Positions 2,985 to 62,767 of a DNA stretch of 64,000 bases are shown piece by piece. The DNA comes from Candidatus Caenarcanales bacterium (GTDB lineage: Bacteria; Cyanobacteriota; Vampirovibrionia; LMEP-6097). Both the position numbers and the translations under genes were made by a program. The notes beneath the pieces were generated by a model. That model was not told the DNA's origin and did no database searches. It worked only from the letters and a program-made list of their open reading frames with translations. The stretch spans positions 1 through 64,000 of the forward strand of contig JABSOS010000007.1 of the NCBI GenBank assembly GCA_013216135.1. The letters run 5' to 3'. Numbering within the stretch: the first letter of the stretch is position 1; each line of letters starts with the position of its first letter.

Positions 2985-3024
2985 TTTGCGGAAAAATGAC
3001 CCCTAAAAATTCGTGAAGCAATTT
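2985..3024 (+). promoter_or_regulatory. Shared promoter module, copy 1, upstream of the VirB4 operon
   Basis: GCGGAA, 2 bp, ATGACC (2996-3001), 17 bp, CAATTT (3019-3024), then 15 bp to the ATG at 3040. The same arrangement occurs at three other places in the window, always upstream of a start codon. The block TGACCCCTWAAAATT is conserved even in the spacer, which suggests regulator binding in addition to sigma recognition. Confidence 0.65.
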
Positions 3025-3039
3025 TGCATTATTAAATGC

Positions 3040-3597
3040 ATGGATGCCTTTTCAAAAGAAGACCGCATATATTTTGCGACTAAAAATAAAATTGCTTATG
3101 CTCAAAAATCTCCTTTCTTAGAGAAAGAAATTATTTCACGAGTAATCGGTTCAAAAGAATTTTATAAGTCTATATCAGAGAAGCAAAGCTTCACAGAAAA
3201 ATTAAAAAGAATGCATGCAGCTGAGCATAAACTCTATAGATGCTTCATGAATAAAATTAAGAAGCTGCCATTTGATACTAGAGTAGAAACATTACTTAGA
3301 TATATTCCATCCATAAAAGAAATTAAAGAAACAAACAGTTTCTCATTTTTCTGCGGGACTACTCAAGCACTTTTCTTAATAAGTTTTAGCCTATCCCTAT
3401 TACTTTTAAACAACTTTACAAATACTCTTATTTCACTATTCATAAGCTTCTTCACTAGTTATTCACTAATATATTTCATCCAGAAGAAATATTTTTTAAC
3501 AGAACCAGATGAGTTTGAAATAGAAATAGCAAAAGCAGCACTAGTAAAAGTATTAGAAGGAGAAAAATATGACACTGATACTCACATCATCTATTAG
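3040..3597 (+). CDS. Membrane protein, first gene of the VirB4 operon, weakly DUF1385-like
   Basis: The protein has 185 residues from ATG 3040, chosen because it lies 15 bp past the -10 of the shared promoter module. A GTG at 3013 overlaps the promoter. A polar N-terminal half contains MHAAEHKLYRCF, which resembles the GAEHK motif of DUF1385 (YqhQ) membrane proteins. It is followed by two adjacent hydrophobic stretches at about residues 105-150 and a short polar tail. Its last 29 bp overlap the next gene, which indicates translational coupling. The DUF1385 link rests on one short motif and is tentative. It may be a membrane subunit of the secretion-like complex. Confidence 0.6.
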   Translation: MDAFSKEDRIYFATKNKIAYAQKSPFLEKEIISRVIGSKEFYKSISEKQSFTEKLKRMHAAEHKLYRCFMNKIKKLPFDTRVETLLRYIPSIKEIKETNSFSFFCGTTQALFLISFSLSLLLLNNFTNTLISLFISFFTSYSLIYFIQKKYFLTEPDEFEIEIAKAALVKVLEGEKYDTDTHIIY

Positions 3598-3985
3598 TTA
3601 CTATCTTATAAGCTTAATAAGCCATTACATAGTCTACAGAATTAGCATCCCAGTTAAAATTCTTGCTAGTAAAAGTAAGTCTCGAAATGGTGCTTTTATT
3701 TTAAGATCTGTTGCAACCACTACAGTGACTATCTTTCTTATTCAGGTTCTTCCACTCATATTTAAAATCATCGAAGACTTAGCCTCTGACTTTAATGTCT
3801 CTGTAATATTTTCTGAATCATATATAGGTGGTGGATTTTTAAATAACTTTGATAGATTCTCAGCCTTAATGGCGCAGATCGCTGCTCTACTTCAGCAAGT
3901 AGCACCTCTAATTGCAGTATTTATAGGAGGATTCAATCTTCTTAATAATTTATCTAAAGGAATAGCGGCTATCAAAAATGATTGA
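3569..3985 (+). CDS. Small polytopic membrane protein in the VirB4 operon
   Basis: This 138-residue protein has three hydrophobic segments: near the N-terminus, around TVTIFLIQVLPLIF, and near the C-terminus around LIAVFIGGFNLLNNL. An AAGGAG ribosome-binding site precedes its ATG, which lies inside the preceding gene. It overlaps the VirB4 start by 8 bp. In type IV secretion loci, small hydrophobic proteins just before VirB4 are often VirB2 pilin or VirB3, and position suggests such a role. The sequence itself does not let me decide. Confidence 0.6.
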   Translation: MTLILTSSISYYLISLISHYIVYRISIPVKILASKSKSRNGAFILRSVATTTVTIFLIQVLPLIFKIIEDLASDFNVSVIFSESYIGGGFLNNFDRFSALMAQIAALLQQVAPLIAVFIGGFNLLNNLSKGIAAIKND

Positions 3986-5924
3986 AGCAGAAGATATTTT
4001 AAATACAGAAATAAAACTAATAAGTAATTTTAGTATTAGAGATCTGCTTTTCTTGATTTTCATAATCCTTACTAATTACTTTTTGCTAGCAAGCTTGAAA
4101 ATTAGTATAAGCTCTCCTCTTTTTATTTTCTGTCTATCACTAGAAACTTTAGTTTGGGTACTCTTAAAAAGCTTATCCATTAAAGCTTACGCTCCTTTAC
4201 ACTACTTGAATTTAATTGGCTTTTACTTTAGGAAACTAAAACATAGTGCTGAAAAGTATTTCAAAAATACTTTCAAAGATACTCAAATATATCACTGTAA
4301 AAATTTAATTAACGACTCATGGATAGATGAAAAAAATCATGAACAAATAGGTAAAAGTTTTAGTAATTTAATTAAAAGTCTTTATCAGATTGACAATGAA
4401 ATACAAATAAACTTTCGTATATTCATTAGTAATGAAAAAGGAAATGGGGAACAGTTTCACCCTAAAAGAAAACTATATTTCGAAATGAAGACAAGTCAAA
4501 ATCATAGTTTCATTGAAGAAGAGTTAAAGAATTTTTTTATACTAAATAACTTAAGTATAGAAAAAATCAAAACTGAGAACTTCATTAACTTCTATAAAAT
4601 ATTTACCGGTATTAAACATTTCATCAAAGAAAGAAAAGATTACTTAAAAACTAAATACTATATCTCGAACCTTCAAGTAAAGAACTTTAAAGAAGAATCT
4701 ATTTCTCTAAATCAATTAATTAAAGCCATTCAATGTAAAGGTGAGTTAAATTTAAAAATAAACTTCCAGAATCAAGATCAAATTTCTAAATTAATTAAAT
4801 TTAAAAAAATAATTATTAAGTATCTCAATCCAGAAAACAATCACAATCAACAGCTTTTAACAAAGTTAGAAAATATTGAAAACAATATTCAAAAGGATGA
4901 AGCCTACATAGAAGAAAAGATCAATATTAAATTAATCTCAAGCACTAGGGATATATTAAAAACAAATGAGAAATCGCTATGTAATAAAGCCTTTAACGGT
5001 GAGATTATAAAACCACATTTCTCAGAGTATAAAAGCTTTACAAATAACTATATAAGTAAAAGTTTAATTAACCTAAATGAGCTAAAAAAACTTAATCCAT
5101 TTATTGAAAACAGAGTAGGAACACCTCATGGAGAAGTAATAGCCTGCAAAGCAGATGATAACTCACTAGTTAAGTTTGATATATTTGATAAGAATTTCTC
5201 AAATAACTATTCTATAAATTTTATTGGAGACTCTGGTTCTGGAAAATCTCTTGCAGCAAAACTACTGATGAAAAGACTTTCAAAGAATAAGCAGAATAAG
5301 TTCATTATCATTGATAGTTCTTTAGAAGGCTGGGAGAAAATAACTAAAGAATTATCAGGAAATATAGAGAGTTTTAAAAATATTAGTAAAAGTACTCATG
5401 CAATTGACTCTATAAAAAACTCGCAAGTGAATTTATTTAACTTTTATGCAATCGAAAAAGATATAAGAACCAGTCAAAACTTACTTCTTCAAATATTAGA
5501 GAAGATCAATAAGTTAGTTATAGAAAGGGATTCAAACTACTTTATTATCATTGACGAAGCTTGGAAATTATTAATTAATGAAAACTCCAAAGCATCTTCA
5601 GAACTCTTAAGTAAAATCGCAAGAACAGGAAGATCTATGAATATAGGCTTGTGGACACTATCTCAAAAACCAAAAGATATAAACCGAGATATTCACTCAA
5701 ATGCAAGCAACAGTTTCATTTTTCAAATTAAGGAAGAAAATGATAAAGATGAACTTACTAAGTATCTCAGTATAAGCAAACAAGAGAGAAATTCACTCGA
5801 TAGTTTTCAAATCAAGCAAAGAGGCTTTGCCCTAATGAAAAACCAATACTTTTCAGGGTTAATCAAATTCACCTTTGAAAGTAATGAGTTTAAGTTCTTA
5901 AACTCGGAGCATAAAATATGTTGA
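3978..5924 (+). CDS. virB4: VirB4/TraC-type secretion ATPase
   Basis: VirB4 ATPases energise pilus assembly and substrate transfer at the base of type IV secretion systems. The 648-residue protein shows the Walker A motif GDSGSGKS at about residues 417-424 and Walker B FIIIDEAWKLL at about 522-532. ARTGRSMNIGLWTLSQKPKD follows, as in VirB4 and TraC. The first ~75 residues hold two hydrophobic helices, like a fused VirB3 or PrgI-type N-terminus. The middle is lysine- and asparagine-rich and poorly conserved. It overlaps both neighbours by a few bases. The operon has no VirD4 coupling ATPase, VirB11 or relaxase within the window. Confidence 0.85.
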   Translation: MIEAEDILNTEIKLISNFSIRDLLFLIFIILTNYFLLASLKISISSPLFIFCLSLETLVWVLLKSLSIKAYAPLHYLNLIGFYFRKLKHSAEKYFKNTFKDTQIYHCKNLINDSWIDEKNHEQIGKSFSNLIKSLYQIDNEIQINFRIFISNEKGNGEQFHPKRKLYFEMKTSQNHSFIEEELKNFFILNNLSIEKIKTENFINFYKIFTGIKHFIKERKDYLKTKYYISNLQVKNFKEESISLNQLIKAIQCKGELNLKINFQNQDQISKLIKFKKIIIKYLNPENNHNQQLLTKLENIENNIQKDEAYIEEKINIKLISSTRDILKTNEKSLCNKAFNGEIIKPHFSEYKSFTNNYISKSLINLNELKKLNPFIENRVGTPHGEVIACKADDNSLVKFDIFDKNFSNNYSINFIGDSGSGKSLAAKLLMKRLSKNKQNKFIIIDSSLEGWEKITKELSGNIESFKNISKSTHAIDSIKNSQVNLFNFYAIEKDIRTSQNLLLQILEKINKLVIERDSNYFIIIDEAWKLLINENSKASSELLSKIARTGRSMNIGLWTLSQKPKDINRDIHSNASNSFIFQIKEENDKDELTKYLSISKQERNSLDSFQIKQRGFALMKNQYFSGLIKFTFESNEFKFLNSEHKIC

Positions 5925-6457
5925 AAAGATCATTACTAAAAGTATTAACTCTTCAAGAAAAAGAAAAGTACTTAGTACTTATAGTCGTAGTTCTATGTTT
6001 AATAATTTTATTTTCTTTTATCGAAATTTCAGAAACAAAAGAACAATTGAAGTCAAAAAATAAAATTAATATTGAAAATAGTATTTTAAAAATGAGTCAA
6101 GGAGAAGAAAAGCATGATATTGATGCCTTTGTAAAAAAATACTTAGATAACATTTTCAACTCAAACTCAGATAGTGATTTAACTTGGCTTAAAGAACATA
6201 GTGATCAAAAATTCTTTTTAGATACTCTTAGTGCACACTTAAGTGCACGAATTGAAAAGAAAATAGCAAGTAACTTTAGTATTGAAAGATTTTATAGAGA
6301 AGACTTAGATAGAAACATTGAAAAAATAATTGTATTCGGTGAGGAAAAGTTTTCTAACTCAAATTATGAAAATAGAGTACTTGTAATTGAACTAATTTTA
6401 AATACAGAGCTATTAAAAGTCGAGGAGATTATTTCTATCAAGACACTCAATGAATAA
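5918..6457 (+). CDS. VirB8/TraE-like bitopic membrane protein
   Basis: The product has 179 residues: a short cytoplasmic start, one membrane helix at about residues 18-38 (YLVLIVVVLCLIILFSFI), and an extracytoplasmic domain of about 135 residues. This topology, size and position directly after VirB4 match VirB8/TraE, the inner-membrane scaffold of type IV secretion systems. The soluble part has ISIKTLNE at the end and alternating hydrophobic strands, but I see no decisive motif. Start and stop overlap the flanking genes (7 bp and 8 bp), so it is translationally coupled. Family assignment is mostly by position. Confidence 0.55.
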   Translation: MLKRSLLKVLTLQEKEKYLVLIVVVLCLIILFSFIEISETKEQLKSKNKINIENSILKMSQGEEKHDIDAFVKKYLDNIFNSNSDSDLTWLKEHSDQKFFLDTLSAHLSARIEKKIASNFSIERFYREDLDRNIEKIIVFGEEKFSNSNYENRVLVIELILNTELLKVEEIISIKTLNE

Positions 6458-7616
6458 AAATGTCTTCCTAATTCTAACTTCACTATGGCTCTCACAGATT
6501 CCTGTGCTAGCTTTTTCTTTAGATGATCTTTTGGATAAAATTAATAACAATATTAAAACCTACCCAGAAGTTAGAGATAGAAAAATTCATTTTAAGACTG
6601 GTAAAAGTCCACTTGCAGCTTTAGAAACGATTGAAGATAAAACGAAAAGAGAATTTGAGAAAGCAAAGCAAAGCCAAGAAAGAATAGTTACCATCAGTGC
6701 TGCAAATAAAATTGTCGGGCTCGCTGATGGCTTTATTAATGTTAAATACCAAGTTCAAGATGGCATAAAAAATGCTCTTAAAGACATATTTATCGGTTAT
6801 CCAGAGTATCAAAGACGAAAAGTCACAGAAGAAATCACAAATGCAAACATAAACTCACATATAAACCTCCTAGACTTTATTTATCAGTTTAGTTTCGAGG
6901 ATTACTTTACTAGTCTATATCTTCAGAAAAATTCAATAGCTCATACACAAATATATAAAAAGCTAAAACAGATAAGTTTTAGTCTAGTAATAGTTATTAC
7001 ACTAATAAAGCTCCTAGAATCCTTTTTCATAAAAGAAAATATTGCTCGAGAAAGAATTGAAGTGATAATAAAAAAATCAATACTTTGTTTATTACTATTA
7101 ATCACATTAGATTTAACATGGTCTTTAATATTAAAATCCTGCTTATTTTTAAGTGAATATTTAAATACCATAAATACTTTTATTGAAAATAAACTTAATT
7201 ACATTAACCTAATCCAGAGTTTAATTTCCTCCTGGGAAAGTTTACTAAATAGAATCGGCTATTTCCCAGCATTAATATTAAGCCTAGTCGATACTTGCAG
7301 TCACTTTCTTTTTTACTCAGTGATTGCCTTTTCAAGCCTAATATTAGTGCTAATTAAATTATGCTCCCCCTTACTTATCCTTACAGAGCTATTTAGCAAT
7401 TCGAAATCCTTAAACCTAAACTACTTTTTCCTCTTTATAAAAATCATTTTTCTATTTATGCTTTTTCCTCTTTTTATAAAAATCAATCATTTCATTGCAA
7501 ATAGCATTGATATCTCTGGTCTTAAGTACTTAAATATTATTTATTCGATTAATTTATTTTTAGCAATATCAATTATTTTCTTATGGACACTCACTTATAG
7601 AGCTAAAACCAATTAA
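6450..7616 (+). CDS. VirB6/TrbL-like polytopic membrane protein
   Basis: The 388-residue protein begins with a probable signal peptide (NKNVFLILTSLWLSQIPVLAFS). A charged region of about 150 residues follows, then five or six strong hydrophobic helices from about residue 175 to the end. An extracytoplasmic segment followed by a multi-helix bundle fits VirB6/TrbL-type channel proteins. Its place after the VirB8-like gene supports that. It starts inside the preceding gene. The C-terminus is very hydrophobic and ends just after the last helix. Confidence 0.55.
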   Translation: MNKNVFLILTSLWLSQIPVLAFSLDDLLDKINNNIKTYPEVRDRKIHFKTGKSPLAALETIEDKTKREFEKAKQSQERIVTISAANKIVGLADGFINVKYQVQDGIKNALKDIFIGYPEYQRRKVTEEITNANINSHINLLDFIYQFSFEDYFTSLYLQKNSIAHTQIYKKLKQISFSLVIVITLIKLLESFFIKENIARERIEVIIKKSILCLLLLITLDLTWSLILKSCLFLSEYLNTINTFIENKLNYINLIQSLISSWESLLNRIGYFPALILSLVDTCSHFLFYSVIAFSSLILVLIKLCSPLLILTELFSNSKSLNLNYFFLFIKIIFLFMLFPLFIKINHFIANSIDISGLKYLNIIYSINLFLAISIIFLWTLTYRAKTN

Positions 7617-7629
7617 AATTATTACTATC

Positions 7630-8868
7630 ATGAAAAGAAAAATTAATACTGAAGAAATATCAAGGTCACATATTCATGATGCCATTAACCTTTTTAACTT
7701 AGTAAATTCAGAAATATCTGAACTGAACGTAGATGATACGAATCAAACTCAAATCAGGAAAATAAAGAAGCTTATAGAATCATCAGTCGACCACTTTAAA
7801 GAAGTTTTTGAGACTTTAGATAGTAAAAATACTGAAATTTATTTAAAAAGTTCCATGGACTTGAAAGATTTACTTGATTTAGAGATTTTTGATGTCTTTA
7901 GAGATTCACGCTTAACTATAGAAGATAAAGTTAAGCAGAATAACGCCTTAATAATAGGTAATTTTCCTTTACTATCAAAAGCACTTCTAAACCTCATTGA
8001 AAATGCCCTAAAGGTATCAAACTCAATCATAGAACTAAAACTAGAAGAAGGAAATGAGCATTGGTTAATTAAAATACATACTCCAGATGAAGCTTTCAAT
8101 GAAGAACTTGCTTCAAGCTTCGAAAAATTAAAACCAATAAACTCACGCCATGGCTTAAAGTCAATATCTGAGATATTAAAGTATCATGATGCTAAAGTAG
8201 AGGTATATAACCTTTACACTAGTGAAAACAGCATCAGCATTTACTTTCCTAAGTTAAGAAAGACTGTCTCAGAGCAAAGCTCCGACCAAAGAATATTCCC
8301 AGTAATAAATAAAACATTTCCAGCAATCAATAAAACATTACTTGAAATTTTGATGGCTAGCTTTATAGTAATTTTTAGTGTTACAGCTATTCATCTTGAG
8401 CGTAAGCAAAGTTACTCAAAACTAATGCAAAAACTAACGAACTATGAAAACAAAAATCTCGGTTATAAAGCTAAAGAGTTGCAAAATAAAATCACAAGTA
8501 TTGAAATAGCTATAAAGAATGATCAGGATAGCTACCTAGAAAACATTTACTCAGTAAAGCTTCCTGGAAACACTGTAGAGAACCAATACATTATTTTCAA
8601 ATCCTTTCTTCAAATGAATTCATTAAGTACCAATCAAATAAAGAGTATTGAAAAACAGGCAAGTAATTTCTATGAATATCATTTTATAAATGCGAGTAAC
8701 CTTGAAGCTCAGTCTAAAACAATACTTGCAAGTAAAGAAAAGCTCCTGGGGCTTTTAATAAAACTTAAAAACTCAATCTATATAAGCATAGAAGAAAAAA
8801 TTATTCGCAATGAAAACATCGAAACTATTTCGAAACTAATTCTTTACCTTCAAGACCAAGAACCTTAA
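7630..8868 (+). CDS. HATPase-domain protein with C-terminal membrane anchor
   Basis: The 412-residue protein has a histidine-kinase-like ATP-binding fold in its N-terminal half. The N box is at about residues 117-129 (LLNLIENALKVSN) and a G2-like segment at 174-190 (HGLKSISEILKYHDAKVEV). The DxGxG box is degenerate (IKIHTPDEAF). A helix around SRSHIHDAINLFNLV could be a dimerisation/phosphoacceptor helix. One membrane helix follows at 238-256, then a coiled-coil-rich domain of about 155 residues. Kinases normally have the sensor first and the ATPase last, so the order is inverted. It lies 13 bp after the VirB6-like gene and is probably part of the operon. It overlaps the 3' end of thrC by 44 bp. 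Confidence 0.65.
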   Translation: MKRKINTEEISRSHIHDAINLFNLVNSEISELNVDDTNQTQIRKIKKLIESSVDHFKEVFETLDSKNTEIYLKSSMDLKDLLDLEIFDVFRDSRLTIEDKVKQNNALIIGNFPLLSKALLNLIENALKVSNSIIELKLEEGNEHWLIKIHTPDEAFNEELASSFEKLKPINSRHGLKSISEILKYHDAKVEVYNLYTSENSISIYFPKLRKTVSEQSSDQRIFPVINKTFPAINKTLLEILMASFIVIFSVTAIHLERKQSYSKLMQKLTNYENKNLGYKAKELQNKITSIEIAIKNDQDSYLENIYSVKLPGNTVENQYIIFKSFLQMNSLSTNQIKSIEKQASNFYEYHFINASNLEAQSKTILASKEKLLGLLIKLKNSIYISIEEKIIRNENIETISKLILYLQDQEP

Positions 8869-9922
8869 TAATTTTAGATTCATCAGCTGGGAAAGACTCA
8901 TTCTCATCGATATCAACTTCCTGAATAGCTGTAGATGGATCTTTTAAACCATTACCTGTAAGGATGCAAACTACAGTAGAGTTAGCTTGAACTAAACCTT
9001 GTTTAGCAGCTTTAAGTAAACCAGCAACTCCAGTTGCAGATGACGGTTCACAAGCAATTCCATCCATTTGATGTAATAGTTTATATGCATCTAAAATCTC
9101 TCTATCTGTAACAGAATCAATATGTCCATGTGACTCTTCTAGAGCCTTCTCTGCTTTCTCCCAGCTAGCTGGATTACCGATTCTAATAGCAGTAGCTATA
9201 GTCTCAGGCTTATCAAAAACTTTTTTATTTACGATAGGAGAAGCTCCTTCTGCTTGGAAACCATACATTTTAGGTCTCTTTTTCCAGAAACTTAAATACT
9301 CTTTAAAACCTTTCCAGTAAGCAGTTATGTTACCAGCGTTGCCTACAGGTAAACATAAATAATCAGGAGCTGAGCCAAGCTCATCTACAATTTCAAAAGC
9401 ACCCGTTTTCTGTCCTTCAATTCTATATGGATTTAAAGAATTAACAAGTTCAATCGGATAGTTTTCAGATAATGATTTTACTATGTTTAAAGCATCATCA
9501 AAGTTTCCTTCGATTTGAATAACTTTAGAACCATAGATCATTGCTTGAGAAAGCTTTCCTAGGGCTACATAACCAGCAGGAATAATTACATAAGACTCCA
9601 TATCATAGCCCATAGCTCTTACTCTAGAAGCATAAGCAGCAGCTGATGCACTAGTGTTACCAGTACTAGCACAAATAATTTTGGTAGCACCCTTCTCTAC
9701 AGCTTTAGATACAGCCATAGTCATTCCACGATCTTTAAAAGAACCACTTGGGTTAACACCTTCGATCTTACAGTAAACTTTTAAACCTTTAACGCCAGTA
9801 AGTTTTGCGATATTCTTAGCTTCTACTAAAGGGGTTCTACCTTCACAAAGACTTACAATAGGCGTGTCTTTAGTTACAGGTAAGTATTTTTTATATCTAT
9901 TAATAGTTCCTTGATAAAGCAT
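8825..9922 (-). CDS. thrC: Threonine synthase
   Basis: PLP-dependent threonine synthase converts O-phosphohomoserine to threonine. The 365-residue protein has EGRTPLVEA near the start and the PLP lysine in GSFKDRGM (about residue 63). The substrate/phosphate loop STGNTSASAAAYASR, the glycine-rich LPVGNAGNITAYWKGFKEY, and CILTGNGLKDP near the C-terminus are also present. It is the short, single-domain form. It lies 34 bp downstream of mqnC. A TATAAT sits in that gap 13 bp before its ATG, so it may have its own promoter. It is convergent with the kinase-like gene and overlaps it at the 3' ends. Confidence 0.93.
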   Translation of the reverse strand: MLYQGTINRYKKYLPVTKDTPIVSLCEGRTPLVEAKNIAKLTGVKGLKVYCKIEGVNPSGSFKDRGMTMAVSKAVEKGATKIICASTGNTSASAAAYASRVRAMGYDMESYVIIPAGYVALGKLSQAMIYGSKVIQIEGNFDDALNIVKSLSENYPIELVNSLNPYRIEGQKTGAFEIVDELGSAPDYLCLPVGNAGNITAYWKGFKEYLSFWKKRPKMYGFQAEGASPIVNKKVFDKPETIATAIRIGNPASWEKAEKALEESHGHIDSVTDREILDAYKLLHQMDGIACEPSSATGVAGLLKAAKQGLVQANSTVVCILTGNGLKDPSTAIQEVDIDENESFPADESKIIKVLGLEGKELVSK

Positions 9923-9956
9923 GAATCAAGTTAATATTATAACTTACTGAGTTAAC

Positions 9957-11153
9957 TTAAACTAAATTATACTGAGTATCCCTCTGCGCAAAATCACGCC
10001 CACAAGCTTCGATGAAGTATTCCATCTGCTTAACAGAAGTTCTATAAGTAGTATCAGCAGCAGAAACCACATTCTCTTCCATCATATTCCCACCGAGATC
10101 ATTACAACCGAAGTTTAATGATACTTGACCGATTTCATGTCCTTGAGTAACCCAACTTGCTTGGAAGTTTTTAAAGTTATCTAAAAAGATACGAGCAATA
10201 GCAAGTGACCTTAGATATTCTTCACCCGAAGATTCTTTATTATATTCAGGTAATTTTCCATCTTTTTCAAAAGCATCCATGATTTTACCTAGTGGAGTTC
10301 CACCTCTCTGGAAATTCCACAGAACAAATGCAGTAAAACCATCTGTTCTATCCTGAACATCTCTAAGTTCTTGCATGTGCTGGACTCTATCCTCATAAGT
10401 CTCGACATGACCATACATCATAGTCGCAGAAGATCTAAAACCAATACTATGAGCTGTCTCCATAATATCAAGCCATCTTTGAGTGTCTATTTTTTTAGGA
10501 GCAATAATCTCTCTAACTCTTTCAGTAAGTATTTCAGCACCAGCACCTGGAAGTGAATCCATACCAGCATCTTTTAAAGCTTCTAGCACATACTTAATCT
10601 CTTCTAAGCTAGGTTCAATAATAGATCCAGGATTAGTTCCATCTCCATATAAACCTACTGGAGTAAAATGTTTCTCAGCTATATGCTGAACTTCAGAAGG
10701 GCTTAAAGCGTGTAAAGTTACGCTTGGAAAATCTTTTTTAATCTGAATAAAAAGTTCTTGATAATAATCTAAACCTAGTTCAGGGTTATGTCCCCCCTGC
10801 AAAAGAATTTCAGTCCCTCCAATATCAACTAATTCCTGAATCTTAGGTTTCATTTCTGTTTCGTAATCTAAAACATAAGCTTTTGGGAAATTACCTACAC
10901 CTTCTTCGATTCCAGGAGGGGTATAAAAAGCACAGAAACTACAATGAGCAGTACAGACATTAGAATAATTAATATTTCTCTGTACTACATAAGTTACTGG
11001 TTCAGAGTCTGGATGAAGAGATTTTCTCTTTTCATTAGCTACATAAGCAAGTTCCAGTAGATCAGCATTTTCAAAAAGATCTAAAGCTTCAAGATAGCTA
11101 ATACGGTGACCTTCTAGAGCTTTATTAAGTATAGGGTTAGATGTTTTAAGCAC
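9957..11153 (-). CDS. mqnC: Cyclic dehypoxanthinylfutalosine synthase, radical SAM
   Basis: MqnC cyclises dehypoxanthine futalosine in the futalosine route to menaquinone. The 398-residue radical SAM protein binds a 4Fe-4S cluster through CTAHCSFC at about residues 68-75, preceded by NINYSNVC. It has the family segments GTEILLQGGHNPELGLDYY, SLPGAGAEILTERVR and SATMMYGHVETYEDRVQH. MqnE and CofH are relatives, but the RNINYSNVC opening and overall pattern favour MqnC. It starts 5 bp after the end of the preceding coiled-coil gene, so these may be co-transcribed. No other mqn gene is nearby. Its presence implies a menaquinone-based respiratory chain, consistent with nuoHI and atpG here. Confidence 0.85.
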   Translation of the reverse strand: MLKTSNPILNKALEGHRISYLEALDLFENADLLELAYVANEKRKSLHPDSEPVTYVVQRNINYSNVCTAHCSFCAFYTPPGIEEGVGNFPKAYVLDYETEMKPKIQELVDIGGTEILLQGGHNPELGLDYYQELFIQIKKDFPSVTLHALSPSEVQHIAEKHFTPVGLYGDGTNPGSIIEPSLEEIKYVLEALKDAGMDSLPGAGAEILTERVREIIAPKKIDTQRWLDIMETAHSIGFRSSATMMYGHVETYEDRVQHMQELRDVQDRTDGFTAFVLWNFQRGGTPLGKIMDAFEKDGKLPEYNKESSGEEYLRSLAIARIFLDNFKNFQASWVTQGHEIGQVSLNFGCNDLGGNMMEENVVSAADTTYRTSVKQMEYFIEACGRDFAQRDTQYNLV

Positions 11154-11158
11154 TATTA

Positions 11159-11833
11159 TTATTCTACCTCGAAAGAATCTTTTGAATCTTTCAATTGCAG
11201 CTCTAGTAGAAATTTACTGACCAATAGCTTTAAATGATTGTTAATTGGTTGATTCAGTTGCTTAGAATCATTATAAACATTAATGTCATTAGCAAATTTA
11301 CTCTTACTTAATAATTGATTCTTTCTCGGATCAATATCTTTAATCATTGGAATTAAAGTTTTAAAAAATATCATTTTTCTAGCTTTGTCTAACTTTAGTT
11401 TTTTAGATAAATCAAGCCAAGAGCTATCAAATAAGTCTAATAAATTGTTTATTTTAGATTTATTAAAAAACTTAATCAAATCATTTTTAAAATTCCTCTC
11501 CTGATATGTCTCAATGTTCCTCATCGCATTTTCTAAATTATCATCTTCGAATTTTTTTGCGAGAGTATCAATAAAATCAACTAATTGCTTGTCAAAAGAA
11601 TGCTTAATTTCGGGCGAAAAACTCTCCTTATAACGAGATAAATTTTCAAGCATTTCTCTGTTACCTTTTTCAAGATTATTAGAAAATTTAACTACATCAG
11701 CCATTTTTTCTACAATTTGATAAGCAACTTCTTCTATCTTCTCCCGAGAGCTAATAGTTCTATTTTGATAATTCAAAACGTCTTTAGTAAGATCGCTAAA
11801 AACCTTCCTAGCTTTAGTTATGCTAATTGCCAT
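11159..11833 (-). CDS. Hypothetical helical protein
   Basis: The 224-residue protein is charged, rich in lysine and asparagine, almost entirely helix-favouring, and has no signal peptide or membrane segment. I recognise no domain. It lies immediately upstream of mqnC on the same strand. A TAGAAT hexamer ends 6 bp before the ATG and there is no Shine-Dalgarno sequence, so the mRNA is probably leaderless and may extend through mqnC and thrC. No link to menaquinone synthesis is visible from the sequence. Confidence 0.65.
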   Translation of the reverse strand: MAISITKARKVFSDLTKDVLNYQNRTISSREKIEEVAYQIVEKMADVVKFSNNLEKGNREMLENLSRYKESFSPEIKHSFDKQLVDFIDTLAKKFEDDNLENAMRNIETYQERNFKNDLIKFFNKSKINNLLDLFDSSWLDLSKKLKLDKARKMIFFKTLIPMIKDIDPRKNQLLSKSKFANDINVYNDSKQLNQPINNHLKLLVSKFLLELQLKDSKDSFEVE

Positions 11834-11918
11834 ATAGACATTCTAATCATATGTAACCCACAATAAATTAAAGCTATCTAATTATAGAAACAATAAAGTG
11901 AAAATATTCTAAGAAAAC

Positions 11919-13382
11919 TTAAACCATAGCCTCAACGGTCTTAACTAAGTTATCCAGCTCAACCTTATCATTACCCTCAAAGTAAACTCTACACATAGCT
12001 TCAGTACCACTTGGACGAGCAAGTAACCATGAACCATTCTCGAAATAAAGCTTAGCTCCTTCAGTTAAATCAACTTTAAGAACTTTAAAATCACCAATAT
12101 TTTTCAGTTCTGGATTTTTAAAAGTAGCAACAAACTCATCTTTCTTCTCACCATCTAAATGTAGGTCTAATCTATCGTAGAAATATTTCTTACCGACAAA
12201 GTCTTGAACCTCATCCCATAACTGAGAAAGAGTTTTTCCAGTAGCTGCTAGAACTTCAGCTGTAAGTAAGATAGCTAAAATACCATCTTTCTCAGGGATA
12301 TGACCTTTAATACTCATTCCACCAGACTCTTCGGCTACTAAAAGCATTTCCTGCTCTCTCATAAGAGCACAAAGCCACTTAAAGCCTACTGGAGTTTCTA
12401 TAGTTTCAGTTTCTAACTTTTTAGCAAGTTCATCAAATAAATGAGTAGTAGCTAAAGTTCTACCGATTTTACCTTTAAAACCTTTATTCTCAGCTAAATA
12501 CTTAGTGATGATAGGAAGCGTTTTATTCGCTGGATAGAACTCTCCTTTATCGTCTAAGAATGCAAATCTATCAGCATCTCCATCATTAGCAGCTCCTAAT
12601 TGAGCTTTTTCAGAGATAACCGTTTCTTTTAATTCCGTTAATCTTTTTACAGATGGGTCTGGAAGAGAACCACCAAATGTCGGGTCAACAGTGTCATGGA
12701 GAGCAGTTACATTAAAACCAGCTTCTTCAAGAATTTTATTAACAAAGTTCTTGCCTACACCGTGAAGTGAATCGTAGATGACCTTAACTTGATTTTCAGA
12801 ATTCTTTTTCTTAAGTAAATCAAAATCTACAACAGTTTTAATATAGTTCACATATGGAGTCTTAGCGTCGAAAGTAGAAATAGAAGCAGATGCTTTATGC
12901 GCAAGCTTAGAAACTTTCTCTGAATAAGCTTCTTTATCGTCAGCAAACTTTTCAGTTTCAGCAAGGATTTGATTAGTAATCTCAACTGTAGCTGGACCAC
13001 CATATTCTGGAATAAACTTAATTCCCATATATTCAGAAGGGTTATGACTTGCGGTAAACATTAGTGCACCATAGCTAGGCTCAGCTTGAGCTGCAAAAGC
13101 TATAACAGGAGTAGCTATCGGTTCAGGAATTAGTTTCACATCGATTCCAAAAGAATTAAAAATCTCAGCAGAGAATTTAGCAAATTTATCAGCTAAAAAA
13201 CGTGCATCATATCCTATAAAAATAGGCTTATCCTCTTTAAAGTTATTAAGAATATATGAAGAAATTGCTCTAGTTACTAAGTCTAAATTGTCATAAGTGA
13301 ACTCTTTAGCGATTAATGCTCTCCACCCATCGGTTCCGAAACGGATTTGGTGTTTACTAGAAGACTTTGAAACTGCTTGCAT
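11919..13382 (-). CDS. Phosphoglucomutase/phosphomannomutase family protein
   Basis: This alpha-D-phosphohexomutase moves phosphate between C1 and C6 of hexose phosphates through a phosphoserine. The 487-residue protein shows RFGTDGWRA at the start, the catalytic serine loop TASHNPSEYMGIKF and the metal-binding loop ANDGDADRF. The sugar loop EESGGMS and the phosphate-binding ARPSGTEAMCRVYFEG near the C-terminus are also present. The EESGGMS loop fits a phosphogluco/phosphomannomutase rather than GlmM (typically EQSGH), so glucose or mannose phosphates are the likely substrates. It is divergent from aroKB with overlapping promoters. Confidence 0.88.
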   Translation of the reverse strand: MQAVSKSSSKHQIRFGTDGWRALIAKEFTYDNLDLVTRAISSYILNNFKEDKPIFIGYDARFLADKFAKFSAEIFNSFGIDVKLIPEPIATPVIAFAAQAEPSYGALMFTASHNPSEYMGIKFIPEYGGPATVEITNQILAETEKFADDKEAYSEKVSKLAHKASASISTFDAKTPYVNYIKTVVDFDLLKKKNSENQVKVIYDSLHGVGKNFVNKILEEAGFNVTALHDTVDPTFGGSLPDPSVKRLTELKETVISEKAQLGAANDGDADRFAFLDDKGEFYPANKTLPIITKYLAENKGFKGKIGRTLATTHLFDELAKKLETETIETPVGFKWLCALMREQEMLLVAEESGGMSIKGHIPEKDGILAILLTAEVLAATGKTLSQLWDEVQDFVGKKYFYDRLDLHLDGEKKDEFVATFKNPELKNIGDFKVLKVDLTEGAKLYFENGSWLLARPSGTEAMCRVYFEGNDKVELDNLVKTVEAMV

Positions 13383-16265: not shown

Positions 16266-16808
16266 ATGTTTCAGAACTTTGAATTCAAACCATATAAATT
16301 AATTGACTACTCTAAAGATCGCGAAGAAGCTACTGTAGAGTTTGTCCGCAAAGGCTATGCTAGTGTCGGATACATGAACCTAGAACCAGATACTCTTGAT
16401 AATGATCTGCTTCATATTGAAGAGATTTATAAAGAACCTTCATTTTTCAAGTTACTTATAGACAAGTCACTGACTGACATTGATGGCAAAGCCAAAATAG
16501 TAGGATCCATAGCTCTGAAAATAAATAAAGCGAACCCAGAATTAGGACATTCTTCAGAATACGGTGAACTAAAGCGTGTTTTTACAGACACATCACTTCA
16601 TGGAAAAGGTTTAGGGAAGAAGCTTTCACAGTTTGCTTTTGACTATGCTAAAAAGAATGGAATTAAAGTTATAGATATTTGGTCTGGGACACTATGTGAA
16701 GTTGCACATAAGCTTTATCAAAAATTAGGTGCTAAGGATATGGGGGAGATGCGCTTTCTAGGTGGAATAGACGAGGTTTATGAAAAGTATTTTCAGCTTA
16801 GGCTTTAG
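16266..16808 (+). CDS. GNAT-family N-acetyltransferase
   Basis: The 180-residue protein has the GNAT core. An ELKRVFTDTSLHGKGLGKKLSQFAFDYAKK segment matches motif A (acetyl-CoA pyrophosphate loop, HGKGLGKKL). It is followed by the beta-alpha segment around IDIWSGTLCEVAHKLYQKLGA with its Tyr. Substrate is not predictable. It lies 17 bp after carA on the same strand. Its last 11 bp overlap the end of a small membrane-protein gene on the opposite strand. It marks the left border of the accessory block. Confidence 0.8.
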   Translation: MFQNFEFKPYKLIDYSKDREEATVEFVRKGYASVGYMNLEPDTLDNDLLHIEEIYKEPSFFKLLIDKSLTDIDGKAKIVGSIALKINKANPELGHSSEYGELKRVFTDTSLHGKGLGKKLSQFAFDYAKKNGIKVIDIWSGTLCEVAHKLYQKLGAKDMGEMRFLGGIDEVYEKYFQLRL

Positions 16809-16941
16809 AATTTTCATCTAGATCTGTATAATAGCTTTCGACAGGTGTGTTAACAAGTTTATTAACAAGTATTCCAATGATTATTACAATAACACCTGTA
16901 ACACTCATTCCGATTATTGTATTCGTATCAAAACTTTCCAT
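16798..16941 (-). CDS. Small single-helix membrane protein, partner of cassette A
   Basis: The product has 47 residues beginning MESFDTNTIIG. A single membrane helix spans about residues 8-28 (IIGMSVTGVIVIIIGILV), followed by a polar tail ending in DENSKA. The ATG overlaps the last 14 bp of the upstream cassette gene, and GGAGAGA serves as ribosome-binding site, so it is translationally coupled. It is the second gene of a cassette that recurs at 17222-17401 and 20733-20864, with little sequence identity but the same design. Function unknown. Confidence 0.6.
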   Translation of the reverse strand: MESFDTNTIIGMSVTGVIVIIIGILVNKLVNTPVESYYTDLDENSKA

Positions 16942-17161
16942 ATTCTCTCCTTATAATGTAAACTGAATAGCTTGCTAGCTGGTATGCAAAACAACATAAA
17001 GCTATAGAAAAAGGCAAACAATACAACAACTTAACTTCAAAGTTATTAAAATCACCTACTAAAAATCCTAACATCAAATGTCCAAATGGTATAGCTAGAA
17101 TATAAGCCAGGTTTCTAATAAGCTCAGCTCTGAATTTTATATGCTCTGGTATTGATGCCAT
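16928..17161 (-). CDS. Two-helix small membrane protein of the FRAE family, cassette A
   Basis: The product has 77 residues: a polar start, the motif FRAELIRNLAYILAIPFGHL in the first membrane helix (residues ~10-32), a polar loop, a second helix at about 44-68, and a charged tail. The same motif occurs at 20865-21104 (FRAECLKFIAFALTIPFGHL) and in degenerate form at 17385-17636. The shared promoter module ends 14 bp before the ATG. I know of no described family to place it in. The helix-loop-helix form is compatible with a holin-like, toxin-like or subunit role. Confidence 0.65.
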   Translation of the reverse strand: MASIPEHIKFRAELIRNLAYILAIPFGHLMLGFLVGDFNNFEVKLLYCLPFSIALCCFAYQLASYSVYIIRREYGKF

Positions 17162-17175
17162 ATTTTAATTATCGG

Positions 17176-17213
17176 AAATTTCTTTCAGGATTTTTAGGGG
17201 TCAAAATTCCGCA
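17176..17213 (-). promoter_or_regulatory. Shared promoter module, copy 2 (cassette A)
   Basis: On the minus strand GCGGAA, 2 bp, TTGACC (17199-17204), 17 bp, AAATTT (17176-17181), then 14 bp to the ATG. It lies between cassette C and cassette A, so cassette A is not merely read through from upstream. Confidence 0.65.
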
Positions 17214-17221
17214 GAATTGCT

Positions 17222-17401
17222 TTAAACATCTATAGGCGGAAAGAAAAAGTTTTCAAAAAACGACTTGCTTTTATCTATTTTACCGTTGCGCTTTCTGTAA
17301 TTATACTCAGGTAAATGCATTCCAATAATGGCTAACAAAACAGGCAGAAAAGTCATTAATCCTAAATTAATAACATCAATTAAACTATAATTTGGATTCA
17401 T
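17222..17401 (-). CDS. Small single-helix membrane protein, partner of cassette C
   Basis: The product has 59 residues beginning MNPNYSLIDV. One membrane helix spans about residues 8-30 (INLGLMTFLPVLLAIIGMHL), followed by a basic stretch (YRKRNGKIDKSK) and an aromatic/proline tail (FFENFFFPPIDV). A GGGAG ribosome-binding site precedes the ATG. The start overlaps the end of the FRAE-like frame at 17385-17636 by 17 bp, like the overlap in cassette A. It is too short for routine gene callers, and the support is the conserved cassette design. Confidence 0.5.
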   Translation of the reverse strand: MNPNYSLIDVINLGLMTFLPVLLAIIGMHLPEYNYRKRNGKIDKSKSFFENFFFPPIDV

Positions 17402-17651: not shown

Positions 17652-17691
17652 AAATTAAATTGAAAAAATTAAGGGGTCAAAGTTTCGCAAA
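17652..17691 (-). promoter_or_regulatory. Shared promoter module, copy 3 (cassette C)
   Basis: On the minus strand GCGAAA, 2 bp, TTGACC (17675-17680), 17 bp, TAATTT (17652-17657), then 15 bp to GTG 17636. About 55 bp here closely resemble the copy before cassette B (21119-21158). The interval also faces the divergent gene at 17730. Confidence 0.65.
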
Positions 17692-20732: not shown

Positions 20733-20864
20733 CTAATCCTCCTCCCCCATATCCCTTTTAAAACCTCTTTTTGCATCCTCTAGAATAAAATTAGCTAAAG
20801 CAATTCCACCTATTCCAGCGCAAATACCTAAAACATACCTGAGAACTTCTGAATCTTCTAGCAA
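20733..20864 (-). CDS. Small single-helix membrane protein, partner of cassette B
   Basis: The product has 43 residues from a TTG start immediately after the TAG of the upstream cassette gene. AAGGAG lies 10 bp before it, so it is coupled. A helix rich in Gly, Ala and Ile spans about residues 8-27 (VLGICAGIGGIALANFI), followed by a charged tail ending RDMGEED. It ends 1 bp from the convergent 787-residue gene. It belongs with the partners at 16798-16941 and 17222-17401 by position and layout. Confidence 0.5.
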   Translation of the reverse strand: MLEDSEVLRYVLGICAGIGGIALANFILEDAKRGFKRDMGEED

Positions 20865-21104
20865 CTATAATATCTCCTTCTTAACATCAGCCAAAGTATT
20901 TACACAATGATGAATAATTAGATATGAACAATTTAACAGAAAAATAGAAATAGGTAAAGTTACAGTAAGCTTAAAGATTATATTCTCTAATTCCCCTTGA
21001 ATTATACTCAAGAATAAATGCCCAAAAGGAATTGTCAAAGCAAAAGCTATAAACTTTAAACACTCAGCTCTAAACTCAACTGCTTTTGTCCTATTTTTCT
21101 CCAT
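20865..21104 (-). CDS. Two-helix small membrane protein of the FRAE family, cassette B
   Basis: The product has 79 residues: polar start MEKNRTKAVE, FRAECLKFIAFALTIPFGHL in the first helix (~10-35), a second helix at about 46-66, and a polar tail ADVKKEIL. It is clearly paralogous to the protein at 16928-17161, sharing FRAE, IPFGHL and spacing. The shared promoter module ends 14 bp before its ATG. The tail codons also supply the ribosome-binding site for the next gene. Function unknown. Confidence 0.65.
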   Translation of the reverse strand: MEKNRTKAVEFRAECLKFIAFALTIPFGHLFLSIIQGELENIIFKLTVTLPISIFLLNCSYLIIHHCVNTLADVKKEIL

Positions 21105-21118
21105 ACCCTAATTATGAA

Positions 21119-21158
21119 AAATTAGACTAGAAATTTTAAGGGGTTAAAATTCCGCAAA
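21119..21158 (-). promoter_or_regulatory. Shared promoter module, copy 4 (cassette B)
   Basis: On the minus strand GCGGAA, 2 bp, TTAACC (21142-21147), 17 bp, TAATTT (21119-21124), then 14 bp to the ATG at 21104. It also lies about 35 bp before the divergent UDG-like gene. Confidence 0.65.
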
Positions 21159-61855: not shown

Positions 61856-62767
61856 TTAAGCAAAGAGCTGGGCTAGACTAAATTCTGAGCCCGGCTCTCT
61901 TTTTATTAAGCCTCTTACCTCTAGTAAAGATAAAGTCTGAGAAATCCCAACTTCATTTTTATTCAAACTAACTTTAATAGTTTCAAAGCTCTTAGAACCA
62001 GACTTTAATAAACGAATAATCTCTCCAGCTAGACCCACAGCAAAATTATTTGCAGAAGAAATTTTCTTAGCTTCGCGAACCCTTTCTAAGTTCAAACTAC
62101 TTGTAAATTCCTCTATAGAATTAATAGATTTAGCAGAAAGGGAGTTAAGCAAAAGCTTATTTGCTGCAAAAGCTGGCTTATCAAGCTCTGTAGCAAAGGT
62201 GTAGAGAGGTTTCTCAAGCTTCTCTGCATATTTTGCAGTAATTAAAGAACCACTTTTCGCGGCCGCTTGAACTAAAATCGTAGCTTTGCTTAAAGCTGCT
62301 ATCAAACGGTTCCTATGAGCGTAAGTCCATTTCTGTGCTTTAAAATTAGGTTCGAATTCTGAAATGATCAAGTTTTTTGGATTTTCCATAACTCTTTTTA
62401 CGAAAAACGAATTTAAATCTAAATGAGATTCTAAAAGCCCAGAACCTAAAATTAAAACAGTATTTAGCTTATTTTCGAGTGCAGCAAAATGTGCCTCCTG
62501 ATCTATTCCTATTGCTGCACCACTAACAATAGTAGTATCAAAGTTAGCCAAAGACTGAACTAGAGAACGAGTTAAATGCTTTCCATAAAGTGTCGAGCGC
62601 CTAGCCCCAACAATAGAAATACAAGACTCACAGTTTAAAGAACTAATGTCACCGATGTAATAGAGCTTCTCTGGAGCATTCTTTAAAATTCTTAAAGCAC
62701 TAGGATATAGTTCATCATTGATATTTACGACTTTTATGAGAGATTTTAAAAATTTAGACATATACAC
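61856..62767 (-). CDS. dprA: DNA-processing protein DprA
   Basis: DprA binds incoming single strands and loads RecA during natural transformation. The 303-residue protein has the Rossmann-like core: CISIVGARRSTLYGKHLTRSL, TIVSGAAIGIDQEAHFAAL, TVLILGSGL, SEFEPNFKAQKWTYAHRNRLIAALS, and AAKSGSLITAKYAEKLEKPLYTF. A C-terminal winged-helix part (EIIRLLKSGSKSFETIKVSL) follows, and the SAM domain of longer versions is absent. It suggests a competence capability. The start is the first or third codon (Met). Confidence 0.94.
   Translation of the reverse strand: MYMSKFLKSLIKVVNINDELYPSALRILKNAPEKLYYIGDISSLNCESCISIVGARRSTLYGKHLTRSLVQSLANFDTTIVSGAAIGIDQEAHFAALENKLNTVLILGSGLLESHLDLNSFFVKRVMENPKNLIISEFEPNFKAQKWTYAHRNRLIAALSKATILVQAAAKSGSLITAKYAEKLEKPLYTFATELDKPAFAANKLLLNSLSAKSINSIEEFTSSLNLERVREAKKISSANNFAVGLAGEIIRLLKSGSKSFETIKVSLNKNEVGISQTLSLLEVRGLIKREPGSEFSLAQLFA
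61864..61905 (+). terminator. Intrinsic terminator of sepF within dprA codons
   Basis: AGAGCTGGGCT (61864-61874) pairs with AGCCCGGCTCT (61888-61898) with one G-U pair. CTTTTTATT follows on the plus strand. The same bases encode the last residues of dprA on the minus strand. Confidence 0.75.

Follow-up and report, generated by a model that had tools for sequence, protein, structure and literature searches.

In Helicobacter pylori, a type IV secretion system (T4SS) can serve DNA uptake (PMC13395361). Minimal, relaxase-poor T4SSs with a chromosomal VirB2/3/4/6/8-type core and no tie to mobile elements have been described in Patescibacteria (PMC12102498), and in Vampirovibrio chlorellavorus, from a probably related non-photosynthetic lineage, a T-type conjugative T4SS is found on plasmids and one contig (PMC4451040). 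Another point of comparison is offered by the competence regulons of the ComK, ComX and CRP-S type, in which many genes, comM, dprA and small extra ones among them, come under the shared control of one regulator box. Here, a short DNA element, referred to as the box, is described from a stretch of 64,000 nucleotides (the window; G000:C50:1-64000) in the 3.08-Mb, 52-contig genome of a Candidatus Caenarcanales bacterium, where it precedes a T4SS-like operon with a VirB4 ATPase gene as well as cassettes of small membrane-protein genes. In gene content and in family sizes, the genome is similar to the non-photosynthetic relatives of cyanobacteria in the Vampirovibrio group. The box is likely to be the operator of a dedicated LuxR-activated regulon that runs a competence-like programme; in the literature, no competence regulon of such a kind was found described for this lineage.

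The box has the consensus GNGG-N5-TGACCCC-TWAAAATT, and its first base lies 52 +/- 1 bp 5' of a start codon. All four sites that a first-pass annotation had reported in the window are present, where dinucleotide shuffles expect none, and the distances it gave to the start codons are correct for ATG 3040, ATG 17161, GTG 17636 and ATG 21104; the motif GCGGAA, which it had assigned to all four, holds except at cassette C, where GCGAAA is read. The promoter features of the window are the following.

2988 to 3009, plus strand: box of the VirB4 operon, GCGGAAAAATGACCCCTAAAAA, 52 bp 5' of ATG 3040, kept before the orthologous operon in two sister genera (g2 and g4)
3027 to 3033, plus strand: putative -10-like element CATTATT of the VirB4 operon, from the alignment of all sites
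17191 to 17212, minus strand: box of cassette A, start codon ATG 17161
17667 to 17688, minus strand: box of cassette C, with 3 mismatches, start codon GTG 17636
21134 to 21155, minus strand: box of cassette B, start codon ATG 21104

Genome-wide, GCGGAANNTTGACCCCTWAAAA has 33 matches at up to 3 mismatches, and the general form GCGGAA-N3-TGACCCC has 32 sites at up to 2 mismatches, as compared to 0 for a reversed-pattern control. At 28 of these 32 copies an open reading frame (ORF; at least 34 codons) starts at +51 to +53 from the first box base, which is true of 2.2% of random positions (binomial P ~2e-42). Copies within a cassette array, described below, are not independent, and the spacing test was rerun on the non-array copies alone (15/18 with an ORF start, P ~1e-22) and in the sister genus g2 (35/43, P ~2e-50). 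Matches are limited to the window's own genus (g1) and g2 within the family (f1); 51 genomes of other families yielded 1 chance-like match, and a scan of the GTDB collection returned 1, which lies within a coding sequence of a Bacteroidetes contig and was put down to chance. With sites found almost only before starts and a coherent set of genes downstream of them, as the scan proposed in the first-pass annotation was meant to reveal, the box very probably marks a genome-wide regulon.

The genes preceded by the box comprise the VirB4 operon, ComM (L035; YifB model TIGR00368, 450 bits), a LuxR/GerE gene, two secreted-protein operons and about 30 two-gene mini-membrane cassettes. One operon of secreted proteins is found behind the box at L043, and at L032 the box lies upstream of a gene for a secreted propeller-like protein. 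The shared operator stands directly before comM in g1 and g2, and in a further genus, g3, it does so via a leading cassette. DprA is encoded within the window as well (62141-62740, minus strand), without a box. At L032 (7656, minus strand), L143 (2059, plus strand) and L047, representing two genera, the box upstream of the propeller-like gene is located between tRNA-Lys and tRNA-Gln genes, on the strand opposite to them, and transcription from it would pass antisense through tRNA-Gln.

The same arrangement recurs in the sister genera of f1 with a changed spelling. In g2, the box GGGGAAAAATGACCCCTTAAAA precedes the VirB4 operon, ComM, the LuxR gene, an L043-type operon, the propeller-like gene and cassettes. 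In g4, GAGGACTTTTGACCCCCTACAAA is found before both the VirB4 operon (51 bp 5' of the ATG) and the LuxR gene, and in g3 G(A/G)GGTTAAATGACCCCTTTCG occurs at both the LuxR and T4SS promoters, the LuxR gene having two or three boxes GGGGTTAAATGACCCCTTTCG. The spelling of the box is thus genus-specific and agrees between the LuxR gene and the T4SS operon. The box, its spacing, targets, conservation and genus-specific spelling are all properties of the genome sequences themselves. The proposal of the first-pass annotation that one regulator serves a T4SS-like operon and small membrane proteins that may be functionally linked to it gains support from the genome scan and from these sister-genus promoters. 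In g3, moreover, the T4SS operon and ComM each have a small-protein cassette immediately in front of them: at L092 a box lies 52 bp before a pair of P1 and P2 genes (the two cassette families described below) immediately upstream of the VirB4 operon (the pair is truncated in L089), and ComM is preceded by a P1 and P2 pair with a box at L252, L253 and L254.

Two further observations concern box copies in these genera. Several g3 promoters (L166-L168, L252-L254, L257) have two boxes about 97-99 bp apart, with the flanks CCCCCTTAAAT upstream and CCCCTTTCGTTT downstream. In g2, insertion sequence (IS)-like transposase genes with CxxC motifs (L046, L050, L053, L056, L064) have a box about 53 bp before their start, and these copies are often at contig ends, as expected of a repeated mobile element that has captured a promoter.

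The candidate regulator (L040) is a protein of 114 amino acids, essentially one GerE helix-turn-helix, whose gene follows a box copy of its own; it matches PF00196 above the cut-off (2e-11 in g1, 3e-13 in g2). A LuxR protein of 123 amino acids is encoded at L132. Its orthologue is box-preceded in g1, g2, g3 (where there are 2-3 tandem copies) and g4, at a distance from the start of about 100 bp (~103 bp or more) in g2 and g3. Both this orthologue and the VirB4 operon are present in 9/9 genomes of the family, and neither reaches a similar score in any of 88 genomes from other families. A LuxR-type activator is the simplest cause of the shared promoters, because its gene is box-bearing in four genera, because its distribution matches that of the T4SS operon, and because the spelling of its promoter changes in step with the others. 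It is therefore quite probable that this protein is the regulator that binds the box, with GCGGAAAAATGACCCC as its candidate target. It shares the GerE helix-turn-helix with other LuxR/GerE-type regulators, and the box is a G/C-armed dyad as theirs are, but no receiver or autoinducer domain was found in it and it has a conserved C-terminal extension of its own.

When the promoters are aligned on the start codon, four blocks appear: GNGGAA near -52, TGACCCC from about -43 to -37, WAAAATT reaching to about -29, and CATRATT from -13 to -7. The GNGG upstream arm is conserved as well as TGACCCC, and the two form a dyad. A CATRATT-type element is found 7-13 bp before the start at 26/31 sites, and a looser -10-like pattern at 24/28, as opposed to 7% of random 10-mers. 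The NAATTT that had been taken for the second hexamer is at that place in 6/31 genome sites and reflects a coincidence of the four window sites. The 24-25 bp from TTGACC to CATRATT fall outside the 15-19 bp spacing of the sigma-70 type, and because TTGACC is too far away to serve as a -35 element, the layout is better explained by an activator whose site overlaps the -35 region than by a sigma factor. Because the -10-like element is so near the start codon, transcription is expected to start on that codon or right beside it, and activation with leaderless starts is considered likely. In the proposed mechanism, the single-domain LuxR/GerE-type protein would bind the imperfect dyad GNGG-N8-CCCC, whose centre is about 45 bp 5' of the transcription start, and activate promoters that have a CATRATT -10 and lack a -35; the mRNAs would start on the start codon or right beside it and would probably be leaderless.

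The T4SS-like operon in the window is made up of six genes.

3040 to 3597, plus strand: first gene, 185 amino acids, 2 transmembrane segments, 'HAAEHK...FCGT'; start set by the box spacing, orthologues aligned
3569 to 3985, plus strand: VirB2-like small membrane protein, 138 amino acids, from its position and size; conserved place in the operon (alignment A8)
3978 to 5924, plus strand: VirB4 ATPase with a PrgI/VirB3-like N-terminus, 648 amino acids; AAA_10 at 2e-13, above the cut-off
5918 to 6457, plus strand: VirB8-like protein, 179 amino acids, 1 transmembrane segment and an NTF2-like domain; AlphaFold pLDDT 78.5, Foldseek
6450 to 7616, plus strand: VirB6-like polytopic membrane protein, from its position and topology
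7630 to 8868, plus strand: GHKL-ATPase/transmembrane protein, histidine-kinase-like, ending the operon; HATPase_c_5 at 3e-4, g4 orthologue HATPase_c at 8e-9

The first gene product is weakly DUF1385-like (E=0.026) in its g4 orthologue only, and the VirB2-like protein has no Pfam match. For VirB4, the closest solved structure is VirB4 4ag5 (E 4e-11). The VirB8- and VirB6-like proteins have no match in the PDB by sequence; the model of the former matches CagV/VirB8 (E 8e-4, TM-score up to 0.67) and also IcmL, TraM and VirB8 in Foldseek, and that of the latter, which is of low confidence (pLDDT 69.5), has as its top fold match the R388 T4SS inner-membrane complex at a non-significant E of 0.12. 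A coupling protein (VirD4/T4CP, PF02534) was found in 0/9 genomes of the family, as compared to 5/14 controls. With no VirD4 in these 9 genomes and the VirB4 operon in all of them, a conjugative element was rejected, and the apparatus is probably not conjugative. Its use as a substitute for a missing type IV pilus was also ruled out, the platform protein PilC/T2SSF (PF00482) being present in 8/9 family genomes, this one included.

The present system resembles the H. pylori ComB T4SS in being chromosomal, in having VirB4- and VirB8-like and, more tentatively, VirB6-like parts, and in its apparent co-regulation with a transformation gene, although VirD4 is absent here (PMC13395361). It differs from ComB in that no VirB9- or VirB10-like gene was recognised in the operon (no profile search was aimed at them), in that the type IV pilus platform protein is present too, and in that DNA uptake is a proposed role here. 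With the Patescibacteria T4SS it has in common a chromosomal VirB2/3/4/6/8-type core with no mobile-element tie; however, VirB3-like and VirB4 parts are apparently fused here, no fusion having been found there, and the present system is box-bearing and confined to one family of another group (PMC12102498). In contrast to the T-type system of V. chlorellavorus, it is minimal, family-wide and without a coupling protein (PMC4451040). That it acts in DNA uptake rather than secretion, with which the apparent co-regulation with ComM and the missing coupling protein would agree, can be proposed tentatively.

Three of the cassettes behind the box lie in the window, each with two genes.

16928 to 17161, minus strand: cassette A first gene, P1 family, 77 amino acids, 2 transmembrane segments (alignment A2; profile match)
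16798 to 16941, minus strand: cassette A second gene, 47 amino acids, 1 transmembrane segment
17406 to 17636, minus strand: cassette C first gene, P1 family, interrupted by an in-frame TAG (profile match)
17222 to 17401, minus strand: cassette C second gene, P2 family, 59 amino acids, 1 transmembrane segment, ...KSFFENFF... (alignment A3)
20865 to 21104, minus strand: cassette B first gene, P1 family, 79 amino acids, 2 transmembrane segments (alignment A2; profile match)
20733 to 20864, minus strand: cassette B second gene, 43 amino acids, 1 transmembrane segment

P1 proteins (alignment A2) have about 79 amino acids, 2 transmembrane segments and the pattern ES-KFRAE-L...PF, and P2 proteins (alignment A3) about 55 amino acids, 1 transmembrane segment and ...LDPNKSFLENFF. 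The genome has 36 P1 copies, a few without a recognisable box and several truncated or interrupted, and all 9 genomes of the family encode P1 proteins. No consistent match was obtained for P1 in Pfam, PHROGs, PADLOC or the PDB, or for P2 in Pfam or NCBIfam. That these small proteins are membrane accessory or immunity-type proteins of the programme is suggested with low confidence. On contig C28 (L031, G000:C28:1-16000, 4900-12600), 16 readable cassettes are arranged head to tail over about 8 kb on one strand, with several first genes truncated or frameshifted. There, the stop region of the second gene leads into a hairpin, ATTCCGC-TTTT-GCGGAAT-TTT, with 6-8 of 8 pairs at 16/16 sites (z -2.5 and -4.2 at the two sites tested). 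The right arm of this hairpin doubles as the left arm of the box that follows; the structure is predicted to be a terminator-like stem that belongs to the upstream cassette and overlaps the promoter of the following one. RNA structure as a general feature of the box was ruled out, with no common fold at the window sites and the hairpin particular to this array.

P1 proteins are also encoded in all sampled genomes of a second family, f6, and not in the seven other families of the sample. Upstream of f6 P1 genes lies a perfect dyad, TGTAACC-N3-GGTTACA, which has 14-50 sites per genome, as opposed to 3-11 for the control, and in two genera it precedes ComM (with two dyads), DprA, and RecJ and PilC back to back, all Pfam-confirmed. 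It is also found before MutL, a propeller-like protein, RAYT-type transposases and ORF6N proteins, these names having been assigned by eye. No relative of the window's VirB4 was found in f6. As the f6 P1 genes share their dyad with ComM, DprA, PilC and RecJ where there is no T4SS, P1 is linked with a competence-type regulon even apart from the T4SS. The dyad repeatedly precedes RAYT-type (REP-associated) transposases (L233, L247, L251, L273). At L171 (1540; G037), an imperfect dyad separates a NarL-type response regulator from a single-domain GerE protein, which may correspond to the f1 regulator.

Under the LuxR-activated regulon, a minimal chromosomal T4SS (VirB2-, VirB3/4-, VirB8- and VirB6-like proteins and the GHKL protein) would be induced together with the ComM helicase, the secreted-protein operons and many cassettes that each hold two genes for tiny inner-membrane proteins. 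Competence-like DNA uptake or exchange would be its most likely purpose, and is favoured to a reasonable degree. As in competence regulons of the ComK/ComX/CRP-S type, one regulator box stands before comM, and in f6 before comM, dprA, pilC and recJ, with many small extra genes under shared control; what differs is the single-domain LuxR/GerE candidate regulator, the inclusion of a T4SS operon, the apparently leaderless promoters, and comEC and dprA without a box in f1. Several points weigh against this reading. ComEC and DprA in f1 have no box, so a full competence regulon was ruled out in that family, and the regulon is not a complete one. ComM/YifB is also present in bacteria not known as competent. 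Since PilC/T2SSF is present, the T4SS is no obvious replacement uptake machine, and in f6 the small proteins are found where this T4SS is lacking. The LuxR box is weakly recognisable in a further genus, g5. Finally, Shine-Dalgarno-like 4-mers are found at 0/28 box genes, which is weak evidence for leaderless mRNAs because only 7/44 control genes carry one.

Control by an alternative sigma factor, with TTGACC as -35, NAATTT as -10 and a 17-bp spacer, was the other option in the first-pass annotation. It would account for the constant 17 bp between hexamers at the four window sites and for the -35-like look of TTGACC, but NAATTT is missing at 25/31 sites where CATRATT is kept at 26, the distance from TTGACC to CATRATT is no sigma spacing, and the GNGG arm is as conserved as TGACCCC and forms with it a dyad whose f6 counterpart is perfect. 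With the box of the LuxR gene lying about 100 bp from the start in g2 and g3 as well, a sigma factor is improbable and less likely than a LuxR/GerE-type activator. The same remote boxes (~103 bp or more) count against a 5' untranslated RNA element controlling translation, which the constant distance to the start codon might suggest; the window sites have no stable fold in common (z 0.18, -0.06, -1.0), there is no Rfam match, and the box is separated from the start codon by a -10-like element, making this reading the least credible. Hardly more credible is a passive spread of the box with a mobile or duplicated cassette, free of regulatory meaning. The cassettes clearly duplicate in tandem in the C28 array, a box copy accompanies the g2 IS-like transposase gene, and the ends of arrays have orphan boxes (L034, L037). 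However, the unrelated VirB4 operon, ComM and LuxR have the box at the same 52-bp spacing, ORF starts at fixed spacing are found at 15/18 non-array sites, and orthologous promoters keep a genus-specific spelling not expected of passive copies.

As to purpose, a DNA-damage (LexA/SOS-type) regulon could be read from the f6 dyad before RecJ, MutL and a BRO/DinD-like gene, and from the aid that ComM gives to recombination. This is very unlikely, as no recA, lexA, error-prone polymerase or uvr gene is among the identified box-bearing genes of the g1, g2 or f6 sites read, a repressor needs no fixed 52-bp spacing, and the gene behind the box is LuxR and not LexA. A weapon or predation system, in which proteins leave through the T4SS and the mini-protein pairs are toxin and immunity or bacteriocin-like, is also unlikely, if less so. 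The many diverse, partly decayed two-gene cassettes are like immunity arrays, there is no coupling protein, and a predatory relative has been proposed to use a T4SS on prey (PMC4451040). The T4SS of that relative, Vampirovibrio, is nevertheless a different, T-type conjugation system (PMC4451040), no effector-like gene was found in the regulon, P1 and P2 match no bacteriocin, toxin or defence model, and the f6 cassettes occur without the T4SS and share their dyad with ComM, DprA and PilC.

A competence-like programme under LuxR control, the preferred reading, gives genomes known from sequence alone a coherent programme, together with a candidate regulator and an operator that can be read and would let the regulon be recognised in any related genome. 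It also assigns a large orphan mini-protein family to a regulon of the competence type in two families of bacteria. It is conceivable, though still tentative, that these probable non-photosynthetic relatives of cyanobacteria practise LuxR-controlled genetic exchange, using a coupling-protein-free chromosomal T4SS, ComM and fast-evolving paired mini-proteins of an undescribed family that is tied to competence operators in at least two families. If true, this may be a second tie between a T4SS and a transformation gene, outside Helicobacter and its relatives.
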